This document shows positions 7,616-45,404 of a DNA stretch of 64,000 nt, piece after piece. The stretch covers positions 1-64,000 of the forward strand of contig NZ_FNLC01000004.1 in the NCBI RefSeq assembly GCF_900104065.1, read 5' to 3'. This DNA is from Natronobacterium texcoconense. GTDB lineage: Archaea; Halobacteriota; Halobacteria; Halobacteriales; Natrialbaceae. The stretch's first letter is position 1, and each line of letters starts with the position of its first letter. The notes beneath the pieces were generated by a model that saw only the letters and a program-made list of their open reading frames with translations, had not been told where the DNA came from and made no database searches. Both the position numbers and the translations under genes were made by a program.

Positions 7616-9406
7616 TTACATCGACCGCGGCGCTTCCACGCCGAGAATCGACAGCGCGTTCGCGACCGTGTACTTCGAGGCCGCCACGAGCGCGAGGCGG
7701 GCCTCGCGCAGTTCCGGATCGACGTCGTCGGCGAGCACCGGACACTCCCGGTAGAAGGCGTTGAACCGGTCGGCGAACTCGCGGGTGTAGGTCGCGATCT
7801 GGTGCGGTTCGAGGTCGTCTGCTGCTTCGTCGACGGCTGCCGGGAACCGGCCGATCGTCTCGAGCAGGTCGCGTTCCGCCTCGGTCTCGAGTAGTTCTGC
7901 GTCGAGGTCGTCTGCAATCTCGACGTCACCCGCAGCGATTTCTCTGGGTTCGAAGCCGGCTTCCTCGAGGATGCCACAGCAACGCGCGTGCACGTACTGC
8001 ACGTAGGGAGCGGACTGCGCCTCGAAGTCCAGCGCCTGATCCCACTCGAAGGTGATCGCCTTCGTCGGCTGTTTGGAGACGATGTCGTACCGGACTGCGC
8101 CGATGCCGACCTGGTGGGCGATACGTTCGACGTCCTCGTCGTCTAAGTCGTCGTCGCGGATGCGGTCGTCCAGGCGGTCCTCGACCTCCTCGCGGGCGCG
8201 GTCGATCGCCTCATCTAATAGGTCGTCCAGGTCGACGCCGGTGCCCTCGCGGGTGGACATCCCGAGGCCGCCGGGGAGGTTGACCCACGAGAAGATGACG
8301 TTCTCTAGCTGGTCGACGTCGTTGCCCAGCAGGTCGAGCGTCTGCTGGAGCTGGTTCGCCTGGAGTTTGTGGTCCTCGCCGAGGACGGTCACCGCGCGAT
8401 CGTAGTTCTCGAACTTCCACTCGTGGTGGGCGAGGTCGCGAGTCGTGTAGAGAGTGGTGTCGTCCGAGCGCAGGAACACCATCTTCTTGTCGATACCGTG
8501 CTCCTCGAGGTCGAGTTGCCAGGCGTCTTCCTCGTAGACCGCTTCGTCGAGTTCCTTCAGGCGGGAGACGAGGTCTTCGGTGTCGCCGTTTCGCATGAAC
8601 CGCGTCTCCTTGACGAACTCGTCGAACGCCGCGGGTAGTCGCTCGAGACACTCCGTCATGCCCGACAGCACCTGGTCGACGACCTCGCTGACGCGCTCGT
8701 AGGTCTCCTCGTCGCCTTCCTCGAGCCCCTGCATGATCGCCTCGATCTCGGCTTCGGCCTCGGCGACCTCGTCCTCGGGACCGTCCTCGAGGAAGGCGTT
8801 GCCCTTGCGGTAGTACCGCACCAGGTCGTACTCGATGCGGTCGCGCTCGGGTTCCGAGTCGAGATCCTCCTCGTCGAACGTCTCGTAGGCCCACGTGAAG
8901 ACGGCCATCTGCCGGCCGGCGTCGTTGACGTAGTAGTGGCGGTCGACGTCGTACCCCGCGTAGTCGAGCAGGCTCGCGACCGCGTCGCCGACGATCGGGT
9001 TCCGCGCACGGCCGACGTGAACCGGTCCCGTCGGGTTCGCGCTCGTGTGTTCGACGACGACCGACGTGTCGCGGTCCTCGAGCGCGCCGTAGGCGTCGTC
9101 GGTCGCGGTCTCGAGCGTCTCACCGAAGTAGGCCTCGCTCGGCAGGAAGTTGAGGTACGGCCCCTGCGTCTGGACTTCGGAGACGTAGGTCAATTCGTCG
9201 ACGTCGATCTCGTCTGCGACCTGTCCCGCGACCTGCGGCGGCGGCGCACCCGCCTCGCTCGCGAGTCGGAACGCGACGCTCGAGGCGAGCACGCTCTCGA
9301 CGTCGTCCGGCGGTTCTTCGATCCCGAGGTCGTCGGTGGGGAAGTCGAGTTCGGAGAGCGCCCCCTCGAGGGCGTCCTCGACCTCCGCGCGTAGGGAGAG
9401 GAACAT
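7616..9406 (-). CDS. argS: Arginyl-tRNA synthetase
   Basis: Class I aminoacyl-tRNA synthetase charging tRNA-Arg. The 596-residue protein has the N-terminal Add1 domain, the HIGH-type signature in [17 protein letters not shown], a KMSKS-equivalent GMSTREG, and the C-terminal DALR anticodon-binding domain ending in [21 protein letters not shown]. The length is usual for the archaeal enzyme. The 92 bases before its start lead straight into a large structured inverted-repeat element (9498-9759), which lies between argS and the YbjQ gene on the same strand and could be part of the argS leader or a transcription boundary. Confidence 0.97.
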
Positions 9407-9497
9407 ACCCGCTCGTATTCAGGGCGGGAGTAAAGGAATGTCGGGTTTGGTCGTTGATCGTGTTTGGGGCTACGTTGGGTTGTTCACAGTCGGATCG

Positions 9498-9759
9498 ACC
9501 ACCACGAAAGCCCCTGGCTCGCTCGACCCTCCGGGACTCGTTGCGGTCCTCGCTTCGCTGCGGTCCTTACGTCGCCCGGGAGGGATCGACCGAGCCAGCC
9601 CCTTTCATTCCCACCCCACTGTGACCAGTCGAGCAGCCGATATGGGTGGGAATGAAAGGGGCTGCCGGCTCCGGGAAGACGGGCGGAGTAAGCACGCGAG
9701 CAAAGCGAGCGCGCGCAACGAGACCTTCGACCGGAGCCGGCAGGGGCTTTCGTGGTGGT
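9498..9759. repeat. Cloverleaf-like double inverted repeat (262 bp)
   Basis: Perfect outer arms ACCACCACGAAAGCCCCTG (9498-9516) and its complement (9741-9759) enclose perfect inner arms AGCCCCTTTCATTCCCACCC (9597-9616) and its complement (9644-9663), with a 27-base centre. Between outer and inner arms each side has its own hairpin: a near-perfect stem GGCTCG...CGAGCC (9516-9532/9578-9596) on the left, and a perfect 11-bp stem GCCGGCTCCGG/CCGGAGCCGGC (9664-9674/9731-9741) on the right. The loops of the two side hairpins are themselves related in inverted orientation (CTCGTTGCG ... CTTAC ... CGCCCG). The element is therefore two diverged inverted copies of a structured unit of about 118 bases. 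No protein is encoded. Confidence 0.9.
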
Positions 9760-9802
9760 TTTGTTCGGCGTTAGGACAGCTGCCACTCCTTCGTTGTCGA
9801 GA

Positions 9803-10117
9803 TTATTCGAGCGTGACCGCCGTCCCGTACGCGATCACTTCCGACCCACCTTCGGTGACCTTCGAGGTCTCGAGGCGAACGTTGACGACGGCGTCTGCAC
9901 CCATCCGCTCGGCGTCGTCTTCCATCCGCGAAATGGCCTCGTCGCGGGCTTTCGTCAGCAGTTCGGAGTAGGCTTTCAGTTCGCCGCCGGTGATGTTCCG
10001 CAGACTCTGGGTGATGTCTCGGCCAACGTTGCGGGCTTCGACGGTGTTGCCGCGGGCGACGCCGAGGGCTTCGTCGATTTCGCGGTGCGGGATCGTTTCG
10101 GTCGTGACGATTTCCAT
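9803..10117 (-). CDS. YbjQ/UPF0145 family heavy-metal-binding-domain protein
   Basis: A 104-residue protein starting MEIVTTETIPHREIDEALGVARGNTVEARNVGRDI. The sequence matches the YbjQ (UPF0145) family: the TTETIPGREI-like first strand, GNTV helix, the ISR/NIxGGELKAYSELLTKARDEAI helix and MGADAVVNVRLETS. Members form pentameric rings and were named for a possible metal-binding role, but their function is not settled. The ATG at 10117 gives the family N terminus; the frame stays open far upstream, but the upstream sequence is not protein-like. It is followed on the same strand by the cloverleaf repeat and argS. Confidence 0.9.
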   Translation of the reverse strand: MEIVTTETIPHREIDEALGVARGNTVEARNVGRDITQSLRNITGGELKAYSELLTKARDEAISRMEDDAERMGADAVVNVRLETSKVTEGGSEVIAYGTAVTLE

Positions 10118-39787: not shown

Positions 39788-40201
39788 ATGTCCTGTTCGG
39801 AGTGTGGATCGCCGACGATCGACTTTTCCCTTCCCGAGCGGTACCGGGCGTCTCTCTCGACGGACGCCGCCGTCGCGAACTGTTGTACGCGCTGTCTAAC
39901 TGTCGAACCAGTTACGGACGCCGACACCGACGCGTCGACTCCCGAGTTCGGCCGGATCAGCGACGCCGTTCCGACCGATCAGGAGCAAGCGATCCCACTC
40001 CTGCTGGCGCTCGAACTCGCCGATTCACTCGCGACGAACCGAGACGCGATCGAATCGCTACTTCGGGACGTCGAACGGGCAGGCGCGGATCCGTTACTCG
40101 CGATCGATCGACTCGCGCGTGACCCCGACCTCGAGCCGCGGGTCGACCTCGAGAGGCGGAGTCACCAGATCGAACAGCTGTTGTACTATAGTAACAACTG
40201 A
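39788..40201 (+). CDS. Cys-rich haloarchaeal protein downstream of atpD (DUF6276-like)
   Basis: A 137-residue protein with four N-terminal cysteines in CSECG and CCTRC (residues 3-7 and 32-36), suggesting a zinc site, and a helical C-terminal part (LLLALELADSLATNRDAIESLLRDVERAGADPLLAIDRLARDPDLEP). I recognise it as a conserved companion of atpD in haloarchaea (DUF6276-like, name not certain). It starts six bases after atpD. Its last residues (YYSNN) and its TGA stop are encoded inside an inverted repeat at 40186-40271, so its C terminus may have been altered by repeat insertion. Confidence 0.75.
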   Translation: MSCSECGSPTIDFSLPERYRASLSTDAAVANCCTRCLTVEPVTDADTDASTPEFGRISDAVPTDQEQAIPLLLALELADSLATNRDAIESLLRDVERAGADPLLAIDRLARDPDLEPRVDLERRSHQIEQLLYYSNN

Positions 40202-40271
40202 AACTGTTTGCACACCGATCGCACCGCCGTCGTGCGATCGGGTGCACACTGACTTTCAGTGGCTACTATAG
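40186..40271. repeat. Imperfect inverted repeat, CTATAGTA family
   Basis: Arms 40186-40224 and 40232-40271 begin and end with CTATAGTA/TACTATAG and close on CGATCGCAC/GTGCGATCG, with a 7-base loop CGCCGTC; inner parts (ACTGAAA, GTGCAC) match imperfectly. It contains the last codons and stop of the preceding gene and lies between two converging genes. A short palindromic intergenic repeat of this type recurs in Natrialbales genomes as far as I remember. No transposase is encoded. Confidence 0.85.
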
Positions 40272-43527: not shown

Positions 43528-43613
43528 TCATACGGATTGCTGTAACGATTTACCGGCGCAACCGCCGCCCGGGTCGCGGTTGCGCCGGAAATGACTTACA
43601 GTAAACCGTATCA
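43528..43613. repeat. Inverted repeat, ATACGG...CTGTAA family (copy 1)
   Basis: The left arm 43530-43566 (ATACGG, CTGTAA, ATTT, CCGGCGCAACCG) mirrors the right arm 43577-43611; the inner 12 bp CCGGCGCAACCG are perfect around CCGCCCGGGTCG. The right end contains the TGA stop of pepF on the minus strand. A diverged second copy with the same CTGTAA/TTACAG spacing lies at 52259-52336, again at a gene end. Confidence 0.85.
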
Positions 43614-45404
43614 GCCCAGCAGCGACTCCATCTCCTCGAGTCGCTGCCCGTACGTCTCGAGTGCACGCTCGATCGGTTCCGAACTGCTCATGTCGACGCC
43701 AGCAGTCTGCAGCAACTCGAGCGGGTACTCGCGAGAGCCCTGCCGGAGGAACTCGAGGTAGTCTTTGGCTGCGGTCTCGCCTTCTTCGAAGATACGGTCG
43801 GTGATCGCGAGCGCGGCGGAGATGCCGGTCGAGTACTGGTAGACGTAAAAGGCCCGGTAGAAGTGCGGGATGCGCATCCACTCGCGGGCGATGCGGTCGT
43901 CGACGGCTGCTGGTTCGTAGTACTCCGCCTTCAGGTCTCCGAAGAGTTCATCCAGTCGGTCGGCGGTGAGGGGTTCGCCTTCTTCCTCGAGTCGGTGGGC
44001 CTCGTGTTCGAACTCGGCGAACAGGGTCTGGCGGTAGAGCGTCGAGCGAACGCGCTCGAGGAATTCGTTGAGGACGGCCTTGCGGAACTCGGGATTGTCG
44101 ACGGTCTCGAGCAGGTGGTTCGTCAGCAAGGCCTCGTTGACGGTGCTTGCGACCTCGGCGACGAAGATTTCGTAGCTCGAGTAGACGTACGGCTGCTGTT
44201 CTTTCGTGAACTGGGAGTGCATCGAGTGGCCGAGTTCGTGGGCCAGCGTGTACATCGAGGCGACGTCGTCCTGGTAGTTCATCAGGATAAACGGCTGGGT
44301 GTCGTAGGTGCCACTAGAGTAGGCTCCCGACTGTTTGCCCTCGTTCTCGTAGACGTCGACCCAGCGCGACTCGAGGCCCTCGGCGACGCGGGACTGGTAT
44401 TCTTCGCCCAGTGGTTCCAGTGCGTCGACGACGTATTCGGTTGCCTGGTCGTACTCGAGGTCGGGGCCCTCGTCGCCGGTCAGGGGCATGTAGAGGTCCC
44501 ACATCTGGAGGTCGTCGACCTCGAGGGCCTCGCGTTTCAGTTCCGCGTGGTGGTGGAGCTTCTCGAGGTTGTCGTTGACGGTTTCGACGAGGTTGTCGTA
44601 GACGGAGACGGGGACGTTCGGACCGTCGAGCGCGGCTTCGCGGGCGGTGTCGTAGTTGCGCGCCTGCGCCGTCTTGACGTCTGCCTTGACGCTGTTCTTG
44701 TAGGCCGCGGCGACGGTGTTTCGCATGGACTCCCACTCGTCGAAGTAGTTCTCGTAGACGCGCTGGCGGAACTCCCGGTCGGGGCGTTTGAGCAGGTTGG
44801 TGAAGTTGCTCTGGGTGATCTCGACGGCATCTCCGTCGGGGTCTTCGACAGTGGGGAACTCCATGTCCGCGTTCGAGAGCATGTTGTAGACCTCCCCGGT
44901 CGCACCCGTGACCTCGCTCAGGTCCGCGAGCAGTTCCTCGACCTCCGCCGACCGCGTGTGCGGTTTCATCCGGAGCACGTCGTCGACGTAGTGGTCGTAC
45001 GTCTCGAGGTCGGATACGTCGTCGATCATCTCGTCGAACTCCTCGCGGGTCAGTTCCTGCAGTTCGGGTTCGATGAACGACGACGCAGACTGGGCGTCGG
45101 CCGCGAGCGACTGTGAACGGGCAGTCAGCGCCTGATAGTGCTGGTCCGTGGTGTCCTCGTCCCGTCGCATTCGGGCGTAGGCCGCGACGGTCGACACCTC
45201 GCGCATGATCTCGTCGCGCAGCTCCAGCACCGACAGCAACGTCTCGGCGTCGTCGGTAACCTGTCCCTCGTAGTTCGAGAGTTCCTCGACGCGTTCGGCG
45301 ACGTTCTCGTAGGCCTCCTCCCAGTCGTCGTCGGTCGCGTAGATGCTCTCGAGATCCCAGGTGTACTCCTCGTCGATTTCCGAGCGTTCGGGGACTGAAC
45401 TCAT
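43611..45404 (-). CDS. pepF: Oligoendopeptidase F (M3B)
   Basis: A 597-residue zinc metallopeptidase that degrades medium-length peptides in the cytoplasm. The metal site HELGH is in YTLAHELGHSMHSQF near residue 387, followed by the downstream Glu in FVAEVASTVNEALL. The N-terminal helical domain (LDSIYATDDDWEEAYENV-like) and the C-terminal substrate-loop (GISAALAITDRIFEEGETAAKDYLEFLRQGSREYPLELLQTAGVDM) fit the PepF/M3B family and its usual length of about 600. The stop codon lies within the inverted repeat at its 3' end. Confidence 0.95.
   Translation of the reverse strand: MSSVPERSEIDEEYTWDLESIYATDDDWEEAYENVAERVEELSNYEGQVTDDAETLLSVLELRDEIMREVSTVAAYARMRRDEDTTDQHYQALTARSQSLAADAQSASSFIEPELQELTREEFDEMIDDVSDLETYDHYVDDVLRMKPHTRSAEVEELLADLSEVTGATGEVYNMLSNADMEFPTVEDPDGDAVEITQSNFTNLLKRPDREFRQRVYENYFDEWESMRNTVAAAYKNSVKADVKTAQARNYDTAREAALDGPNVPVSVYDNLVETVNDNLEKLHHHAELKREALEVDDLQMWDLYMPLTGDEGPDLEYDQATEYVVDALEPLGEEYQSRVAEGLESRWVDVYENEGKQSGAYSSGTYDTQPFILMNYQDDVASMYTLAHELGHSMHSQFTKEQQPYVYSSYEIFVAEVASTVNEALLTNHLLETVDNPEFRKAVLNEFLERVRSTLYRQTLFAEFEHEAHRLEEEGEPLTADRLDELFGDLKAEYYEPAAVDDRIAREWMRIPHFYRAFYVYQYSTGISAALAITDRIFEEGETAAKDYLEFLRQGSREYPLELLQTAGVDMSSSEPIERALETYGQRLEEMESLLG

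Follow-up and report, generated by a model that had tools for sequence, protein, structure and literature searches.

The window, meaning the whole 64-kb stretch of DNA analysed (64,000 nt), carries an intergenic structured element at 9498-9759. On one side of it is argS (7616-9406, minus strand; TIGR00456, 464.8 bits), whose ATG is 91 nt away, and on the other, at a distance of 43 nt, is the end of a ybjQ-like gene (9803-10117, minus strand; NF002989, E 9e-32 but under the curated cut-off). The placement given by an earlier, sequence-only reading of this DNA, upstream of argS and beside the YbjQ gene with both genes on one strand, is therefore correct apart from its argS gap of 92 nt.

That reading had also described the element as a double inverted repeat, and its description was accurate to within a base or two. 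There are two inverted units, each with its own paired side arm. The outer arms, ACCACCACGAAAGCCCCTG at 9498-9516 and CAGGGGCTTTCGTGGTGGT at 9741-9759, form a perfect 19-bp inverted repeat, as had been claimed, and the inner arms, CAGCCCCTTTCATTCCCACCC at 9596-9616 and GGGTGGGAATGAAAGGGGCTG at 9644-9664, are likewise perfect, although they measure 21 bp rather than 20 bp. Between the inner arms lies an apical loop (9617-9643), in which, as read off the copies, elements of the window type (class I, below) have a near-palindrome around TGACCGGTCAGCCGACA in common. The side arms differ in sequence yet pair within each half, again as proposed: 79% of the 24 nt of 9506-9529/9583-9606 are paired, and 86% of the 21 nt of 9654-9674/9731-9751. 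The stems named P1 are formed in the first unit (A) by TGGCTCGCTCGA (9515-9526) with TCGACCGAGCCA (9586-9597), and in the second (B) by TGCCGGCTCCGG (9663-9674) with CCGGAGCCGGCA (9731-9742). An RNA fold of the 301-nt stretch reached -179.9 kcal/mol, compared with -125.6 +/- 5.2 for shuffled sequences (z = -10.4), and none of 100 shuffles folded as low as the window element. ARAGORN found no tRNA or tmRNA gene in 9300-9900. No terminator was predicted at the element, nor was a promoter of the sigma-70 type, a type of scan that does not cover archaeal promoters.

Based on its position, 5' of the argS start and between two same-strand genes, the element might be a cis-regulatory leader or a transcript boundary of argS, as the sequence-only reading had suggested. 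This suggestion did not survive comparison with relatives. Across the family a block, AAACCCGACATTCCTTTACTC, occurs just before the argS ATG in genomes that have no upstream element, and in the window the same block (AAACCCGACATTCCTTTACTCCCGCCCTGAATACGAGCGGGT, 9407-9448, minus strand) directly precedes argS; from its position and composition we read it as a putative promoter. Since relatives carry this conserved block at the ATG without the element, an argS leader is not supported. In addition, the other copies of the element adjoin unrelated genes and a terminator-like site was not predicted, so that a boundary or leader role is very improbable. The window element appears instead to be an extra in this species, upstream of the argS promoter block. 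In three of four genus relatives (G001-G003), no match at E <= 1e-50 was obtained for this type of argS. Elsewhere in the window, ~40185-40270 forms a hairpin of ~86 bp whose ends are of the CTATAGTA type, and related hairpins occur at locus L034 and upstream of argS in genome G004 (L138).

The conserved unit and its covariation

Each of the two window units represents a hairpin of ~105 nt with four helices. Its core consists of the conserved flanks GAAAGCCCC and GCCCCTTTC and the hypervariable stem P1 (11-12 bp), followed by three short helices with conserved purine-rich internal loops between them. We built a covariance model, R1, from 16 units aligned on the strand reading GGAMTGAAAGGGGC, with a 25-pair, four-helix structure set by hand. 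Both window units are full-length R1 matches and members of its training set: unit A at 9506-9611 on the minus strand (102.7 bits, E 8e-24 in the 64-kb window) and unit B at 9649-9751 on the plus strand (94.9 bits, E 8e-22).

In the 16-unit alignment, 18 pairs change on both sides and 93% of cells are paired, compared with 27-47% in slid controls. Because this structure was fitted to its own rows, it was retested on 98 separate units, these being R1 matches at loci that came from a separate pattern search of named genomes. In this independent set 22 of the 25 pairs change on both sides, there are 540 double-change cells (157 in shuffles) and 91.8% of cells are paired (28-40% in slid controls), in an alignment which, being built by R1 itself, leans toward the structure; none of 500 shuffles reached any of the covariation measures. 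A model-free test used 68 nonredundant units chosen without any pairing filter, whose 11-bp arms pair at 88.6%, versus 39.8 +/- 2.8% when arms were re-dealt among copies. The covariation therefore exceeds both column make-up and slid controls, the standard expected of a structured RNA class, and the many copies with compensatory changes that the sequence-only reading had proposed searching for were found among the aligned units. On sequence evidence, matched base changes maintain the fold as the stem sequences go on changing, and some folded single strand of the unit appears to matter, though not as part of the argS gene.

The wobble pairs bear on which strand this is. In P1 of the independent set, G.U outnumbers A.C by 25 to 7 on the GGGTGGGA strand, and in the first set the corresponding counts are 29 and 7 on the opposite reading; in the inner helices the two are equal, at 16 to 16. 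Wobble is low overall, at ~4% of P1 cells. This P1 asymmetry lends moderate support to a folded strand that reads GGGTGGGA-TGAAAGGGGC..GGGGCTTTC, and it fits RNA and single-stranded DNA alike.

Distribution, larger forms and same-place copies

Matches to R1 (E <= 0.001; at most 13 per genome among the matches listed) occur in 251 of 293 Halobacteriales genomes, representing 68 of 78 genera, and most of these genomes have several copies. When 295 genomes were sampled from the phylum, nothing outside the order matched: the 48 genomes with a match all belong to the same order or closer. The core pattern GCCCCTTTCANTCCCACC was present in 101 of 125 family genomes, with a maximum of 43 in one, while the backward control was near zero. 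The genome of the window has 11 R1 matches and about ten related intergenic places, and the window element is thus not a chance structure, nor is it the lone copy which the earlier reading had held would count against a structured element. Within this genome the copies are modular, with two side arms in the window copy and at L033, one at L031 and L032, and none at L036; the side arms are flanked by two copies of GCCCC, and the arm differs from copy to copy but pairs. A different palindromic repeat of ~93 bp lies at 43528-43620 of the window, is 86% identical to part of L031 (1691-1790) and is repeated some 30-40 times in each of the genomes G000 and G001.

Copies are dispersed between unrelated genes, with no consistent neighbour or orientation, and copy number varies widely among related genomes. 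Elsewhere the elements are mostly located between genes pointing away from them, according to heuristic gene calls. A distant blastn search of the window element against 50,697 phage records, made with a phage origin in mind, returned no match. Searches of Rfam 15 gave no hit at the gathering threshold for the element or for the plasmid loci described below, the window producing below-threshold chance hits only, and no earlier description was located in a literature search that mostly excluded subscription journals. The unit family is absent from Rfam 15 and, as far as we found, from the literature, which agrees with the earlier statement that no named family fits.

These data bear on whether the units form a family of structured noncoding RNAs that work in trans or in the processing of RNA. 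Each unit would then be transcribed and protein-bound, the copies would be retained genes, and their dispersal would be incidental. Four helices that covary, with purine-rich internal loops conserved between them, are a feature of many RNAs, and the one-strand G.U excess in P1 and the nearly order-wide presence are consistent with this explanation. Against it stand the wide differences in number between related genomes, the lack of a consistent neighbour and orientation, the absence at same-place loci of some relatives, the low wobble in P1 and the tRNA, Rfam and terminator searches without a match. We consider a noncoding RNA family a serious but minority explanation.

The elements occur in two larger forms. 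In class I, the window type, two inverted units are separated by a short apex that is nearly palindromic, and the copies are near-perfect large palindromes. Class II consists of a single unit and, after it, another 150-300 nt rich in hairpins. In genome G015 the class II copies are ~550-700 bp long, share ~20-nt terminal inverted repeats (CGATTTCGGGTGTGAATTGATC) and are closely similar or near-identical at several loci, which indicates that class II probably spread within that genome. In a search of G015 with 3 mismatches allowed, these repeats occurred only at element copies and no transposon carrying them was present, which rules out, within G015, an autonomous partner sharing the class II ends. 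Many class II copies in G007 (L097-L116) are preceded, to the left of the unit, by degenerate 45-bp tandem repeats ending GAACAGCCAGAAAGCCCC. Nested hairpin cassettes are present within class II at L106/L133, L098 and L112 (e.g., CCGGAAATC..GATTTCCGG and CACGAGACG..CGTCTCGTG), and at L106/L133 two sister species have different cassettes at one place. A class II-like sequence also lies upstream of argS at L148, in a genome of another family (G128), possibly by chance.

Copies at the same place in related species show how the stems change. At L110/L136 (G007 versus G008) the flanks are ~90-95% identical and the loop is largely kept in both units, whereas one 12-nt P1 arm retains only 6/12 letters in one unit and 5/12 in the other, with pairing intact. 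The P1 arm retains 8/12 letters at L105/L132 and 12/12 at L106/L133. All of these identity figures refer to the 3' arms and flanks, since the 5' arms are confounded in some pairs by the upstream 45-bp repeats. In this small same-place sample the P1 changes look near all-or-none, and for this reason replacement of the whole hairpin by another copy would fit better than stepwise compensation. As arms at the same place in sister species appear to have been replaced whole, the two arms of the window element need not have diverged from a single arm, as the sequence-only reading had supposed in addition to their inversion.

Other same-place comparisons revealed further rearrangement. G015 and G028 have collinear flanks with the element inverted in one relative to the other, and once it is turned over its P1 shows paired substitutions (CCTCGC/GCGAGG to CCGCGC/GCGCGG). 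L069 and L070 differ by gain or loss of arms, the hairpins nested inside the element differ between G007 and G008, and contig C1 is not collinear between these two genomes. Three relatives have no element at the L031 site. Upstream of ychF one relative keeps a decayed copy, from which we conclude that inheritance, and not fresh insertion, accounts for some copies. No empty site with clean ends and a target duplication was found in G007/G008 or in the own-genus relatives, the junctions of polymorphic sites not being clean.

Whole-stem replacement and in-place inversion are expected traces of recombination, and they raise the question of whether the element is a palindrome acting at the level of DNA, either extruding a cruciform or bound as DNA, with its pairing maintained by hairpin-templated repair rather than by selection on RNA. 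The near-perfect palindromes of class I and the scarcity of G.U pairs would agree with this. Nevertheless, repair that corrects arms would not on its own account for the conservation of the purine-rich internal loops or for paired changes across genera in the inner helices, and the wobble asymmetry of P1 implies that the two strands are not equivalent. A purely DNA-level palindrome is therefore unlikely in our opinion.

A plasmid gene, the preferred reading and related systems

BLAST searches identified the unit in 46 haloarchaeal plasmid records. In the six plasmids inspected first it is located ~0.5 kb upstream, on the same strand, of a gene for a ~290-aa RPA-like protein that has a C-terminal OB fold resembling replication factor A, and in the eleven records common to both searches the unit and the gene are within ~0.7 kb on one strand. 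Of seven further loci chosen by their RPA-like protein, three have a clear unit, one a remnant (Halobacterium salinarum pNRC100, 16.5 bits) and three none. The region between unit and gene is conserved, and the gene together with ~650 nt upstream looks like plasmid backbone; this ~650-nt noncoding region is conserved across haloarchaeal families and is rich in long hairpins (L196-L201, L334-L341). TnpA/TnpB genes have no consistent linkage to the element, with one pair ~2 kb from one plasmid unit. On this positional evidence, the plasmid RPA-like OB-fold protein is the only candidate partner found.

We believe, with a probability of roughly 0.5, that the window feature is made up of two head-to-head copies from a family of dispersed, non-autonomous elements, located between genes in the Halobacteriales, whose unit acts as a folded single strand, either RNA or single-stranded DNA. 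Its transcription, mobility and protein partner are what we infer. A protein supplied in trans would recognise the unit in its folded, single-stranded form, most likely during copying of the element, and this recognition would serve the element's own spread. Conversion between copies through their common flanks would replace stems, and selection would keep the stems paired. Of the roles proposed by the sequence-only reading, that of a mobile structured repeat is the one to survive, although a clean empty site with target duplication was not seen. This counts against our preferred reading, as do the lack of an autonomous partner with the G015 terminal repeats, the RPA-like loci without a unit, the equality of G.U and A.C in the inner helices and the inherited decayed copy near ychF.

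A broader proposal, which we consider doubtful, is that these elements constitute an order-wide class of archaeal mobile elements, so far undescribed, whose end is recognised as a large folded single strand, in which both arms of a stem are rewritten whole at once by exchange between copies, and a megaplasmid link leads to an RPA-like ssDNA-binding candidate partner. Order-wide structured repeats this rich in covariation are unusual for Archaea, and R1 is a ready model for annotating many haloarchaeal intergenic sites. Whole-stem replacement with pairing kept makes it testable whether selection or templated repair keeps palindromes paired. If the plasmid RPA-like protein does bind the unit, a mobility or plasmid-maintenance pathway based on single strands would exist in haloarchaea.

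None of the known kinds of repeat that we compared matches the element in its full defining set. IS200/IS605 elements have strand-specific hairpin ends, and structured RNAs are known at mobile elements; the haloarchaeal unit is far longer than the IS605 end hairpins and lacks a consistent TnpA/TnpB linkage. Parvovirus terminal repeats, palindromes with side-arm palindromes that are found in both orientations, are alike in shape only, as here the repeat is archaeal and genome-internal and no replication protein is linked to it. REP sequences are also intergenic palindromic repeats with many copies per genome (PMC12306157, PMC3733652), but they are 20-40 bp long (PMC3733652), unlike the ~105-nt unit with its four covarying helices.

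Two known kinds come close, the MITE/PATE/SMR repeats of haloarchaea (PMC3119063) and the hairpin elements of mitochondria (PMC2800124). The latter, repetitive hairpins and double hairpins considered potentially mobile and with no known adaptive function, are by description similarly dispersed and intergenic, but are mitochondrial, and the word "compensatory" is absent from that paper (PMC2800124). The Haloquadratum MITEs, PATEs and SMRs are, like our element, short, intergenic, transposase-free haloarchaeal repeats with palindromic ends (PMC3119063). The 19-bp outer arms of the window copy are terminal inverted repeats as in MITEs, and so are the separate ~20-nt repeats of the G015 class II copies, although ends common to an autonomous transposon were not found when the G015 terminal repeats were compared. 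PATEs are related to IS605-type transposons (PMC3119063) and, as in IS200/IS605, are defined by near-terminal palindromes akin to IS605-type ends and by having no terminal inverted repeats, which class I does have. In SMRs, terminal inverted repeats occur but target duplications do not, and how they are mobilised is unknown; SMR-A, at ~110 bp, insert into other mobile elements (PMC3119063). Strain-specific insertion is a mark of SMRs, and the absences seen for the present element are between species. What distinguishes the element described here from all three is an order-wide, four-helix covarying unit with a hypervariable stem and no relationship to a transposon that we could find.
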